Positions 32,053-34,553 of a DNA stretch of 64,000 nucleotides are shown one piece after another. The notes beneath the pieces are model-generated. The model did no database searches. It was not told where the DNA came from and saw only the letters and a program-made list of their open reading frames with translations. The position numbers were made by a program, and so were the translations under genes. Each line of letters opens with the position of its first letter. Position 1 is the first letter of the stretch. Source of the DNA: Furfurilactobacillus milii (GTDB lineage Bacteria; Bacillota; Bacilli; Lactobacillales; Lactobacillaceae); assembly GCF_009864005.1 (NCBI RefSeq), contig NZ_WEZQ01000006.1, forward strand, positions 1 through 64,000, given 5' to 3'.

Positions 32053-32271
32053 CCTTCCGCAAGAACAGCGTTTGTCAAACGCCTTCCATGAATCCGGTTA
32101 AACCGGTTGCTACCTATTATGGCAAAACAATAAACATTTACAATGACAAATTCTCATATCGTTGGTATACCAATGTTTTGAAATGACGCTCAAAACAATT
32201 TAAAAGAATTTCTTAAGTTGGCGAGTCTTTCTTTTGTAAGCGGTTACGTTTCGTGTTACTATACTTGTGAG

Positions 32272-32965
32272 GAAAGGAATTACCTCCTCAATCGACGCCT
32301 TCTCATAGAAACTGTGCCGGGCTGGTTCTTGGAACCACGGTTGACAGTTTGATTGCTACCCCGGCATTTTCAGCCGGTAGTCCGCAGGCCACGTAAAGTT
32401 ACGATGTTGAAAGACATCTATCGCGCATTGATGACGCAATTAGCCATCCGCGCCAAAAGTTGGTGACTAGTAGGTTATGGTAGCTACCCGAATTAAAGCT
32501 CCAACAAGTTTTGTTTCATCTGTTTCAAAAGTTCTATACCAAAGTTTCAAGTTGAGCATGTGATGTTGGTTGTTTTTCAACTCTCTAAGCAGGCGATACC
32601 AATGACCAAGTTTGTATAAAAGAAACCCGATGCTTTGAGTTTCTGCGTTTCCCGTACCAAAACCGTAAAGGATTCACTTGGGAGGTGTATGGCCGATACA
32701 GAGTCATATGTGTTCCACGCGTGATACCGATACCGCCGTTTGCCTGTCGATCAAATGGTGATGAGCGGCCAGTGGTAATGTTGATTACTGCTCCGCCCAC
32801 ATTAGCAGACAGTTTACAAGTGGGCAGGTAGGTCAGGACACGGCGTTACGTAAATTAAATATTGAGGTGTTAGCTCATTCCGAATTGTAAAACGAATGTC
32901 ACGCCGATTGAGGATCTTTCCTTGATGTAACAGGTTCCGGGTAGAGAAGGCTCGGAGCCTTTTTT
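32272..32965 (+). ncRNA. Candidate large structured noncoding RNA (about 0.7 kb)
   Basis: -10 box TATACT at 32260-32265 (a weak TTGTAA is 20 bp upstream). TCCTCAATCGACG at 32285-32297 pairs with CGCCGATTGAGGA at 32902-32914 (12 of 13), and GGAAAG at 32271-32276 with CTTTCC at 32916-32921, so both ends close on each other. Inside are hairpins AAACTGT/ACAGTTT (32309-32350), CTACCCCGGC/GCCGGTAG (32356-32380), GATGT/ACATC (32403-32418) and AGTGGTAAT/ATTACTGCT (near 32775-32795). A terminator (AAGGCT-CGG-AGCCTT plus T6) ends it. No continuous reading frame with a ribosome binding site covers it. Size and architecture recall ROOL or GOLLD RNAs of Firmicutes; this is not verified. Confidence 0.7.
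32947..32965 (+). terminator. Terminator of the large RNA
   Basis: AAGGCT-CGG-AGCCTT stem with a T6 tail, 33 nt after the closing stem of the RNA. Confidence 0.75.
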
Positions 32966-33200
32966 GTGTTGCAAAAGACTTGGTGTCTGTCTCAGTTGCC
33001 ATCGTGAACATCAAAAGTGTAGAGTCAAGTAAGACCATAGCATAATCGTGTTCGCGATTAACGACGTGAGGAATATCGTACTCTAAATTCTGATAAAGCT
33101 GCTTAAACGTAATGGCGCCCCATTCCCCAGTCTAGGAATAGGACGCCATTATGTTTAATGCTTGTTAGCAAACACCGAGAAAATATCCTAACACTGTAGT
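32966..33200. other. Noncoding remainder of the 32-33 kb desert
   Basis: No gene supported. A minus-strand frame is open across 32814-33038 but has no ribosome binding site and runs into the RNA. A hairpin at about 33110-33155 (AATGGCG...CGCCATT) could be a weak bidirectional terminator for the kinase gene. Confidence 0.5.
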
Positions 33201-34553
33201 CTACTTTGTTTGTGCTCTTGGCACATGAATCGTCGTTGTAAATTGCTGACCATCAATTGTTTGTTCAACCTTGATTCCTTGACGGGCCAAACGTCGAATA
33301 TTGCTCATACCAATTCCCATGTGTCCTTTTTTAGAAGTGACACCCATTTGTGACGCATGACTCAAATCAATTTTTGCATTTTTTGGAATCGTGTTTGTCA
33401 CTTGAAACACGTTGCATGCATCGGTTGGCGTCGCACTCAGCTTGACGAGCTGATCACTGTCCGCAGCGGCATCAAGTGCGTTATCTAAAACATTTCCAAA
33501 GATTCGTACTAAGTCCACAGAACGCTCTTCACGTAATTTGATTTCTTCATTGATGCGAACCTCAAACTTAATGTGTCGCTTTTCGGCTTCCAGTAACTTT
33601 GAATAAACCAGCCCTTTTACGTAACCACTACTCAAATACCGTAGCCGTTCAATATCCCCATTACTCATACTGGCAATACGTTGGTCATTATCATGCGTCA
33701 CCTGAGCAAAATACTGTTGCAATTCCTTATCGTTTGAACGCCGAACGAAATAGCTGAGACCTAACAAGATATTTTGGTAGTCATGTGATACGCGGTGCAT
33801 CTCTTCATTCATTCGACTAACTGAAGCATCATAGCCCCGCAAGTTTTCCAGCAACTGTTCACTGCGCGTTTGCTCAGAACGTGATAACACAAGATAATAA
33901 TAAAAGCCGCCTAGCAGCATTCCCAAAATCATCGTCAGGTCTGTCAATAATTGCAATTTCTGTTGCAATGCTGCGGATAGTGAAACGAAATAAACAACAA
34001 AGTAGATGGCGACCAATGTGTAGTCTGAACCATCAGGTTGTAATGCAATCAGTCGTCTAAGTAGAAGATAACGGTTACTAAACCGACCTGCCCAAAGGCC
34101 AAGAATTATAAACACAATAAAGCCAATCGCAACAGCAATTAATTGGTTTAATTCCATCGACAGATTAAAATTAGATTTAAAAATGGACCGTGTATAAATT
34201 GTCAGCGTAGGGGTCAAAAAGAATTGAATCAACAATCCCGATACTCCTCCAACAAACCGCCGAAATGAATCAAAAATCACCAACAATGGAACCACCGTCA
34301 CCCACTTTATCTTAGTGGTCCAGGCCAACATCAAGCTGTTGATTAGGAAAAATGGCAAAATGCTTGAAAATCCATGCGGCCAATTTGGCGCCCATGCCAT
34401 GATGCCAATCCCGACCGCTTCAGCAACTAAGGTCAGTCCAAACCACGTCCATACCTGACGCTTAGTGATCGTTTCGCGCATTGCCAAACTGAAAAATAGC
34501 CAGGTTAGTAATGCACTTTGACTCGTAATTAAAAAAACAATGGTGTTAAGCAC
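33201..34553 (-). CDS. AgrC-like sensor histidine kinase, orphan
   Basis: 450 aa. Six or seven N-terminal membrane segments (residues 1-230), a coiled linker, a phospho-acceptor box MHRVSHDYQNIL, and a GHKL ATPase domain (IFGNVLDNALDAA as N box, KKGHMGIGMSNIRRLA as G box). This layout is typical of kinases sensing cyclic or linear peptides (AgrC, PlnB, BlpH types). GTG start 8 nt after GAGAGG. No LytTR response regulator, AgrB or peptide gene is adjacent on either side. Confidence 0.87.
   Translation of the reverse strand: MLNTIVFLITSQSALLTWLFFSLAMRETITKRQVWTWFGLTLVAEAVGIGIMAWAPNWPHGFSSILPFFLINSLMLAWTTKIKWVTVVPLLVIFDSFRRFVGGVSGLLIQFFLTPTLTIYTRSIFKSNFNLSMELNQLIAVAIGFIVFIILGLWAGRFSNRYLLLRRLIALQPDGSDYTLVAIYFVVYFVSLSAALQQKLQLLTDLTMILGMLLGGFYYYLVLSRSEQTRSEQLLENLRGYDASVSRMNEEMHRVSHDYQNILLGLSYFVRRSNDKELQQYFAQVTHDNDQRIASMSNGDIERLRYLSSGYVKGLVYSKLLEAEKRHIKFEVRINEEIKLREERSVDLVRIFGNVLDNALDAAADSDQLVKLSATPTDACNVFQVTNTIPKNAKIDLSHASQMGVTSKKGHMGIGMSNIRRLARQGIKVEQTIDGQQFTTTIHVPRAQTK

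Follow-up and report, generated by a model that had tools for sequence, protein, structure and literature searches.

A predicted large structured RNA gene of Furfurilactobacillus milii and its relatives in Lactobacillaceae

The analysed stretch of the Furfurilactobacillus milii genome (contig NZ_WEZQ01000006.1, 64,000 nucleotides, hereafter the window) contains a 1.15-kb segment without an evident protein gene, raising the question of what this segment encodes. An earlier note on the same DNA had proposed a noncoding RNA of about 0.7 kb. Our comparisons support this proposal, with a closing stem and a terminator recurring at 53 of 54 loci and no reading frame conserved. We consider it very likely that positions 32267-32965 are a structured, untranslated RNA gene belonging to a Lactobacillaceae family absent from Rfam. 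This confidence covers the gene, its RNA nature and the family, and does not extend to its role.

The segment is the coding desert that had been described. Leaving aside one ORF that overlaps the upstream gene, just two ORFs there reach 60 aa; both are antisense (71 and 74 aa), and neither has a Pfam match. The neighbouring genes encode GNAT, MFS, GHKL kinase and glyoxalase proteins, in agreement with the statement that the locus is not beside phage genes. Relative to the RNA gene, the upstream neighbour is divergent and the downstream one convergent. The GHKL-type sensor kinase gene (33201-34553, minus strand) is convergent with the RNA gene, and no link between the two is implied. The sole tRNA of the window sits 16 kb from the RNA gene, which is single-copy in its own 2.7-Mb genome. 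The elements of the locus are as follows.

32234 to 32248, plus strand: cre-like box (putative CcpA operator) TTGTAAGCGGTTACG, lying over the -35 box TTGTAA (32234-32239), read from the sequence
32254 to 32262, plus strand: extended -10, with TG at 32254-32255 and TACTAT at 32257-32262, separated from the -35 box by a 17-nt spacer
32267 to 32965, plus strand: predicted RNA of about 699 nt, its start inferred from the -10 box and its end from the terminator
32268 to 32277, plus strand: 5' strand of the P1 outer stem, TGAGGAAAGG, pairing with 32915-32924
32285 to 32297, plus strand: 5' strand of the P1 inner stem (the stem of the earlier note), pairing with 32902-32914
32297 to 32304, plus strand: 5' pseudoknot strand GCCTTCTC, just inside P1, complementary to 32944-32951
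32798 to 32965, plus strand: conserved 3' core, matched by model R3 (see below) with E = 4.8e-10 in its own genome, this locus being in the training set
32902 to 32914, plus strand: 3' strand of the P1 inner stem, where A-U/G-U and U-A/U-G changes preserve pairing
32915 to 32924, plus strand: 3' strand of the P1 outer stem, TCTTTCCTTG, pairing with 32268-32277
32932 to 32965, plus strand: terminator, a hairpin (32932-32960) with a 7-nt loop followed by a T-run (32960-32965), read from the sequence
32944 to 32951, plus strand: pseudoknot strand of the terminator loop, GAGAAGGC, complementary to 32297-32304

The cre-like box TTGTAAGCGGTTACG agrees at 13 of 14 positions with TGWAANCGNTNWCA, which we take to be the CcpA operator consensus. 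A -10 box had been placed at 32260; a promoter does lie there, and its -10 is better read as TACTAT at 32257-32262 with an extended-10 TG. The pattern TGnTAnTATA is invariant across 18 aligned rows of promoter/5'-end family members, while deviations of the extended -10 pattern occur in some later members (L086, L099). The combined cre and extended -10 pattern, composed after the site had been seen, occurs once in the 64 kb and in none of 100 shuffles. A simple sigma-70 scan, which needs 9 of 12 positions, does not list this promoter, which matches 8 by our own reading. At the other end, the T6 terminator assigned to 32947-32965 is real, its hairpin being larger than claimed (stem 32932-32960). 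Transcription of 32267-32965 is inferred from these signals, without transcript data.

The position of the cre-like box suggests CcpA control, under which the RNA would be repressed on preferred sugars and made once the sugar runs out. This is inferred, in the absence of CcpA data, by analogy with the cre box of 6S RNA: according to PMC8414754, roughly one in three species of lactic acid bacteria has a cre box at the -35 of its 6S RNA gene, and 6S RNA rises about 3-fold when ccpA is mutated in L. lactis.

A coding gene was considered and rejected, since no long or conserved ORF is present. All 10 ORFs of at least 25 aa within the RNA, counting both strands, are broken in F. siliginis by a stop, a lost start or an indel frameshift, and among 40 fetched loci the longest ORF beginning in the first 400 nt measures 264 nt. 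The minimum free energy of the RNA is -210 kcal/mol (z = -2.2; none of 20 shuffles as low). Because this value departs only modestly from expectation, we rely on comparison, and conservation and covariation in relatives form the main evidence.

In a search of 60 genomes, own genome included, the RNA was found in four of the five other genomes of the genus, three at 98-99% and one at 78% identity. The four carriers are F. milii (two), F. rossiae and F. siliginis; the fifth genome, without a match, is 87% complete and split into 350 contigs. Two early weak matches (L006 and L007) are 30 and 26 bases long. The similarity to F. siliginis (78%) sets in at the -35 box and ends at the terminator, and the flanking genes differ. 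Judged from this sequence comparison, 32267-32965 is an independent RNA gene unit with the predicted limits given above.

Comparison of the window DNA with 397 Lactobacillaceae genomes showed that other genera share the promoter and 5' end, at noncoding stretches of about 600 nt having the same start, closing stem and terminator. The RNAs of the family are about 500-1030 nt long, occurring in Furfurilactobacillus, Lactiplantibacillus, Pediococcus and further genera. A scan of named genomes with the start pattern gave 15 loci, namely four in Furfurilactobacillus, nine in Lactiplantibacillus (nine species), one in Pediococcus pentosaceus and one in a metagenome bin. Among the genus labels used here, g5 is Pediococcus, identified by an identical 840-nt stretch, and g55 is Lactiplantibacillus, identified by shared loci.

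Three models were used to trace the family. R1 is a sequence-only model of the promoter and 5' end that includes the cre box. By our own count from the match table, 66 of the 397 genomes have an R1 match with E below 1e-6; these genomes span 8 genera, and four of the 66 belong to g19, where three loci show no closing stem. Ordinary cre promoters are probably present among the many weaker R1 matches. A sample of 395 genomes of the order yielded 17 with an R1 match at E <= 1e-5, of which 16, own genome included, belong to Lactobacillaceae. The only match outside the family at this threshold, L131, was rejected, as it resembles a coding leader in the 80 bases read. R2, a covariance model of the 3' core built from 13 Lactiplantibacillus sequences with the promoter excluded, matches the window at 32837-32965 (E = 0.0015). 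Of 52 sources, 27 have an R2 match at E <= 0.06, the window among them; L078 and L112, which count as two of these, are the same place, and no g16 or g19 locus is among the matches.

R3 is a broader model of the 3' core, trained on 32 sequences including the window locus. At E <= 0.001 it finds 56 places in 51 of the 397 genomes, spanning 9 genera; many of these were in the training set. R1 and R3 share no sequence, and both are partly trained on loci that they recover; 51 of the 56 R3 matches lie 380-970 nt downstream, on the same strand, of a listed R1 match. For the other five places (G026, G060, G094, G115, G188) no R1 match is among those listed. These five and the match in G085, none of them in the training set, were fetched, and all six show the start and a closing stem by eye. 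The closing-stem sequences of the held-out members from g22 and g25 are quite unlike that of the window. The recurrence of the cre box among R1 matches comes partly from selection, and the promoter-free test is provided by these held-out R3 members, five of the six having a cre-like box upstream and L156 lacking a recognisable one. In 236 genomes of the order, R3 gave only two weak matches outside Lactobacillaceae (E 0.004-0.006, with a cut-off of E <= 0.01). These two (G513 C16 59735-59881 and G485 C1 22501-22641) fall in the same genus, g64, of another family. Weak 3'-core matches (E 0.001-0.003) were also observed in two further Lactobacillaceae genera, g14 and g15 (G018 C1 1481284-1481425, which is L150, and G079 C54 1507-1672), and these are perhaps more distant family members.

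The neighbours of the RNA gene differ between genera, and inspection by eye revealed no neighbour gene conserved from genus to genus. In Lactiplantibacillus and Pediococcus loci only, a small gene whose function is unknown was seen near the RNA by eye. Some genomes contain two divergent copies of the RNA in different neighbourhoods: L083/L084 and L100/L101, both in g5 (Pediococcus), and L087/L088 in g21. The paired copies of Pediococcus are about 500 and about 790-930 nt long.

Closure of the RNA by its ends is the feature most widely retained. A stem pairing 12 of 13 positions between 32285-32297 and 32902-32914 had been proposed, together with an outer pairing of GGAAAG (32271-32276) with CTTTCC (32916-32921). 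The inner stem is present exactly as described, and the outer one is present as well, extending to 32268-32277 and 32915-32924 through G-U pairs. Together they form a single closing stem, P1 (32268-32297 with 32902-32924), located just inside the terminator. The 53 loci with P1 include the window, and the single exception is L094. The third pair of P1 is A-U in 37 loci, C-G in 11 and U-A in five, and is never mispaired. For this count the best-matching 3' strand in a 53-nt stretch was selected, and 54 of the 58 loci with an assigned terminator were used, setting aside L024, L097, L098 and L100; L100 later showed both stem and terminator. Six fetched loci without an assigned terminator (L106, L116, L117, L118, L119, L121) stayed outside the count, two of which (L118 and L119) were later matched by the 3'-core model. 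Among the 40 fetched R1 loci, the closing stem was not found in L094, L116, L117, L121, L097 and L098, and L106 is cut by the contig end. The earlier note had named homologues that conserve a reading frame and not the closing stem as a refutation; the stem is kept at 53 of 54 loci, with compensatory changes, and no reading frame is conserved.

Exchanging 3' strands between genera lowers the P1 score in g5, g11, g16 and g21 and slightly in g50; no drop occurs in g1, g55 and g3. Covariation extends beyond P1. In the cross-genus alignment of the 3' core, 142 cells are changed on both sides, versus 36.5 +/- 5.1 in shuffles, none of 500 reaching this value; the alignment was fitted to the model structure, and sliding controls gave 10-34. 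The Lactiplantibacillus consensus (19 sequences) contains 180 pairs with 96.5% of cells paired, and sliding the partners lowers pairing to 33-45%. Over this whole RNA, 67 cells are changed on both sides, versus 22.7 +/- 4.5 in shuffles. The structure was derived from the same sequences, so these figures are biased in its favour. Against it, every one of 500 shuffles had more further pair types (mean 79.0) than the real Lactiplantibacillus alignment (73). Of the 202 pairs in the Furfurilactobacillus alignment, 11 survive through double-sided changes, whereas at least one sequence breaks 33 (our own count).

In addition to P1, a predicted pseudoknot connects the two ends, in which a 5' CUUCUC segment pairs with GAGAAG in the terminator loop. 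This complementarity is present in the window and recurs elsewhere with different flanks (GCUUCUCAAC/GUUGAGAAGC, ACUUCUCA/UGAGAAGU and UCUUCUCA/UGAGAAGA). Moreover, its core is itself replaced by compensated versions, CUCCUC/GAGGAG in g50 and CUUCUCGCAA/UUGCGAGAAG in g11. At least six contiguous Watson-Crick pairs are formed at 40 of 42 loci from seven genera, versus 12.7% of shuffled loops, and at least eight at 28 of the 42, versus 1.0%. The count comprised these 42 loci plus 12 of g16, excluding L094, L122 and three g19 loci, which show no such pairing, and leaving out L106, L116, L117, L118 and L121, which were not examined for pairing. The pseudoknot is absent in all 12 g16 loci tested and also in L085, L122 and L154. 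Loci without it show no CUUCUC at the 5' end and no GAGAAG in the loop. In g21 and g3 the genus's own loop pairs no better than the loops of other genera, only the core being shared. The lack of a swap effect in g1, g55 and g3 for P1, and in g21 and g3 for the loop, arises because those genera share sequence.

Two groups of loci depart from this arrangement. The g16 subfamily (L017, L018, L029, L030, L089-L092, L095, L107, L108, L110) has the promoter, P1 and the terminator but lacks both the CUUCUC/loop pairing and any detectable 3' core. The g19 loci (L024, L097, L098) have a similar promoter, with cre box and extended -10, before a noncoding stretch in which the closing stem was not found, and they are possibly a different large RNA.

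The 5' domain contains tandem arrays in three members: a 66-nt unit repeated 2.9 times in L096 (3078-3324; also readable as 129 nt repeated 1.9 times), a 69-nt unit repeated 5.7 times in L115 (3078-3465), and a 174-nt unit repeated 4.0 times in L068 (1573-2247), whose RNA is about 1.03 kb long. No array is present in L119, a sister of L096 and L115. The consensus units of L096 form a hairpin pairing 8 of 8 positions as GACTGCTA/TAGCAGTC and 7 of 8 as GACCACCA/TGGCGGTC; this hairpin is thus paired under two sequences, implying changes on both sides between copies within one RNA. Among the hexamers enriched in the family are CTTCTC, GTTCCA, AGGTGT and GGAGGT. GTTCCA was observed 33 times with 5.1 expected, in 19 of 30 loci, and GGAGGT 20 times with 3.7 expected, in 20 of 30 loci.

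The earlier note could not tell whether the RNA is ROOL, GOLLD or new. This is now resolved as none of the known families, on an Rfam search that included ROOL, GOLLD, OLE and raiA. With the 4227 models of Rfam 15 at curated thresholds, applied to the window and 12 related loci, the whole window gave a single match, a tRNA, and the RNA region none, and the 12 related loci gave no match. Under permissive settings, the RNA region produced two noise matches at E up to 10, and six related loci produced unrelated noise at E up to 5. The gathering score of ROOL (RF03087) is not reached by the window RNA or the related loci; as a positive control, the ROOL model exceeds its cut-off in two of 60 genomes (G027 and G038), none of them among those of the same genus (G000-G005). 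The window and the 12 related loci likewise do not reach the gathering scores of GOLLD, OLE and raiA and have no 6S match, and neither the window nor the related loci match a group II intron or domain V model. A known Rfam family was rejected accordingly, there being no match at curated or permissive cut-offs. The window RNA had no match among phage and plasmid records, no plasmid record matched a Lactiplantibacillus member, no phage record matched a Pediococcus member, and the start pattern has 0 matches in viral contigs; carriage by phages or plasmids was thus not found with the queries tried.

Several described RNAs resemble the new one in part. RNAIII of Staphylococcus aureus is about 0.5 kb long, has a long-range stem closing its ends, is condition-dependent with an agr-type promoter, and encodes a peptide. 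It shares with the new RNA the size class, the closed ends and, by inference, the condition dependence, whereas the new RNA has a cre-type promoter and no Rfam match. ROOL, which assembles into an octameric cage, is likewise a large, structured noncoding RNA of similar size in Lactobacillaceae, with unknown function. It is said to occur often in phages and prophages, close to tRNA islands. PMC12286853 cites for ROOL an abundant lncRNA of 520 nt from Lactobacillus salivarius (PMC5643018). In PMC5643018 that lncRNA lies on a megaplasmid and is called species-specific. In contrast, the new RNA lies on chromosome-sized or long contigs in 9 genera and has a cre-type promoter. GOLLD and OLE share its size class, complex fold and loop-loop contacts; unlike them, the new RNA has no Rfam match and no phage or tRNA-array setting. 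The LPSM RNAs (L. plantarum supermotifs; Wels 2009, as summarised in PMC5643018) are large intergenic transcribed RNAs of 800-1000 nt, present in many copies and reported from L. plantarum only, whereas the new RNA crosses genera and is single-copy in five of five Lactiplantibacillus genomes tested. An LPSM repeat was rejected on this copy number, the LPSM sequences themselves not having been compared. 6S RNA, a rod of 160-200 nt that binds RNA polymerase, is unlike the new RNA and shares with it the noncoding nature and the cre box at -35. No description of the family was found in Rfam or the open-licence literature, most subscription papers lying outside this scope; in the main text of PMC11109978, the strings Lactobacill, Lactiplantibacillus and Pediococcus occur 0 times. 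The RNA is a new family among the large structured bacterial RNAs, which are a known kind.

How such an RNA might work can be proposed from its architecture. In the presence of a preferred sugar, CcpA on the cre box over the -35 would block expression, and the RNA would be made upon depletion. It would then fold as a closed multi-domain body with its ends locked twice, by P1 and by the 5' CUUCUC/terminator-loop pairing, which should shield it from nucleases. The locking is inferred, and a stable RNA is predicted from it. The conserved 3' core bears a fast-evolving 5' domain, which takes the form of a tandem array of a structured module in some species. As the neighbours differ between genera, the RNA probably acts in trans. 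Since module number varies on a constant core, a scaffold or decoy is suggested, in which the modular array may hold a protein or RNA partner in several copies. This role is a guess that nothing tests, and we put it at somewhat under an even chance. The fuller reading, which we rate as less likely than not, is a carbon-starvation-induced RNA machine in which the terminator loop docks on its own 5' end as a structural part and duplicated 5' modules would set the number of partners, either alone or in an RNA-only assembly. We know of no other RNA with docking of the terminator loop to the 5' end or growth by tandem modules.

The same loop pairing could instead join neighbouring chains, making the RNA a homo-oligomer in the manner of ROOL, GOLLD or OLE; such large RNAs form homo-oligomers through kissing loops, as stated in PMC12286853. 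Similar size, a complex fold, the lack of a conserved neighbour across genera and the length of the loop pairing are in line with this possibility. However, the RNA matches none of these three families, has no phage or plasmid match and no start pattern in viral contigs, and no oligomer data exist. Both pairing partners adjoin P1, moreover, making an intramolecular contact easy. We regard the homo-oligomer as rather unlikely.

No more probable, in our judgement, is an RNAIII-like regulator acting in trans as antisense to many mRNAs, perhaps with a small peptide. It would account for a closed-ended RNA of 0.5-1 kb with a condition-dependent promoter and for the recurring motifs GTTCCA and GGAGGT. 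Yet the GGAGGT segment lies within predicted helices, and the short ORF that follows it varies, by our own reading, from 17 codons in one Lactiplantibacillus to 11 in the window and four in F. siliginis, with no ATG in Pediococcus (L036).

The remaining explanations are hardly tenable. The RNA could be a mobile-element remnant, a repeat or a decayed gene, with conserved ends representing those of an insertion sequence or intron; the genomic neighbours do differ in two Furfurilactobacillus species, and the 5' GUGNG of the RNA resembles what we take to be group II intron starts. This is countered by the presence of one copy in its own genome and in each of five Lactiplantibacillus genomes, by the RNA's own promoter and terminator, by structure that covaries over several genera, and by the absence of an Rfam intron or element match. 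Just as improbable is that the RNA, which sits between two genes, serves one of these neighbours as a long untranslated leader or as an antisense RNA, as the upstream gene diverges, the downstream gene converges, the terminator closes the RNA and the neighbours vary by genus.

Bacteria have few large structured noncoding RNAs, most of them without a known function. The family described here occurs in tractable, food-grade genera (Lactiplantibacillus and Pediococcus) and carries a readable regulatory clue in its cre box for CcpA. Its natural variants in module number and loop pairing would make the function of a giant RNA open to experiment.
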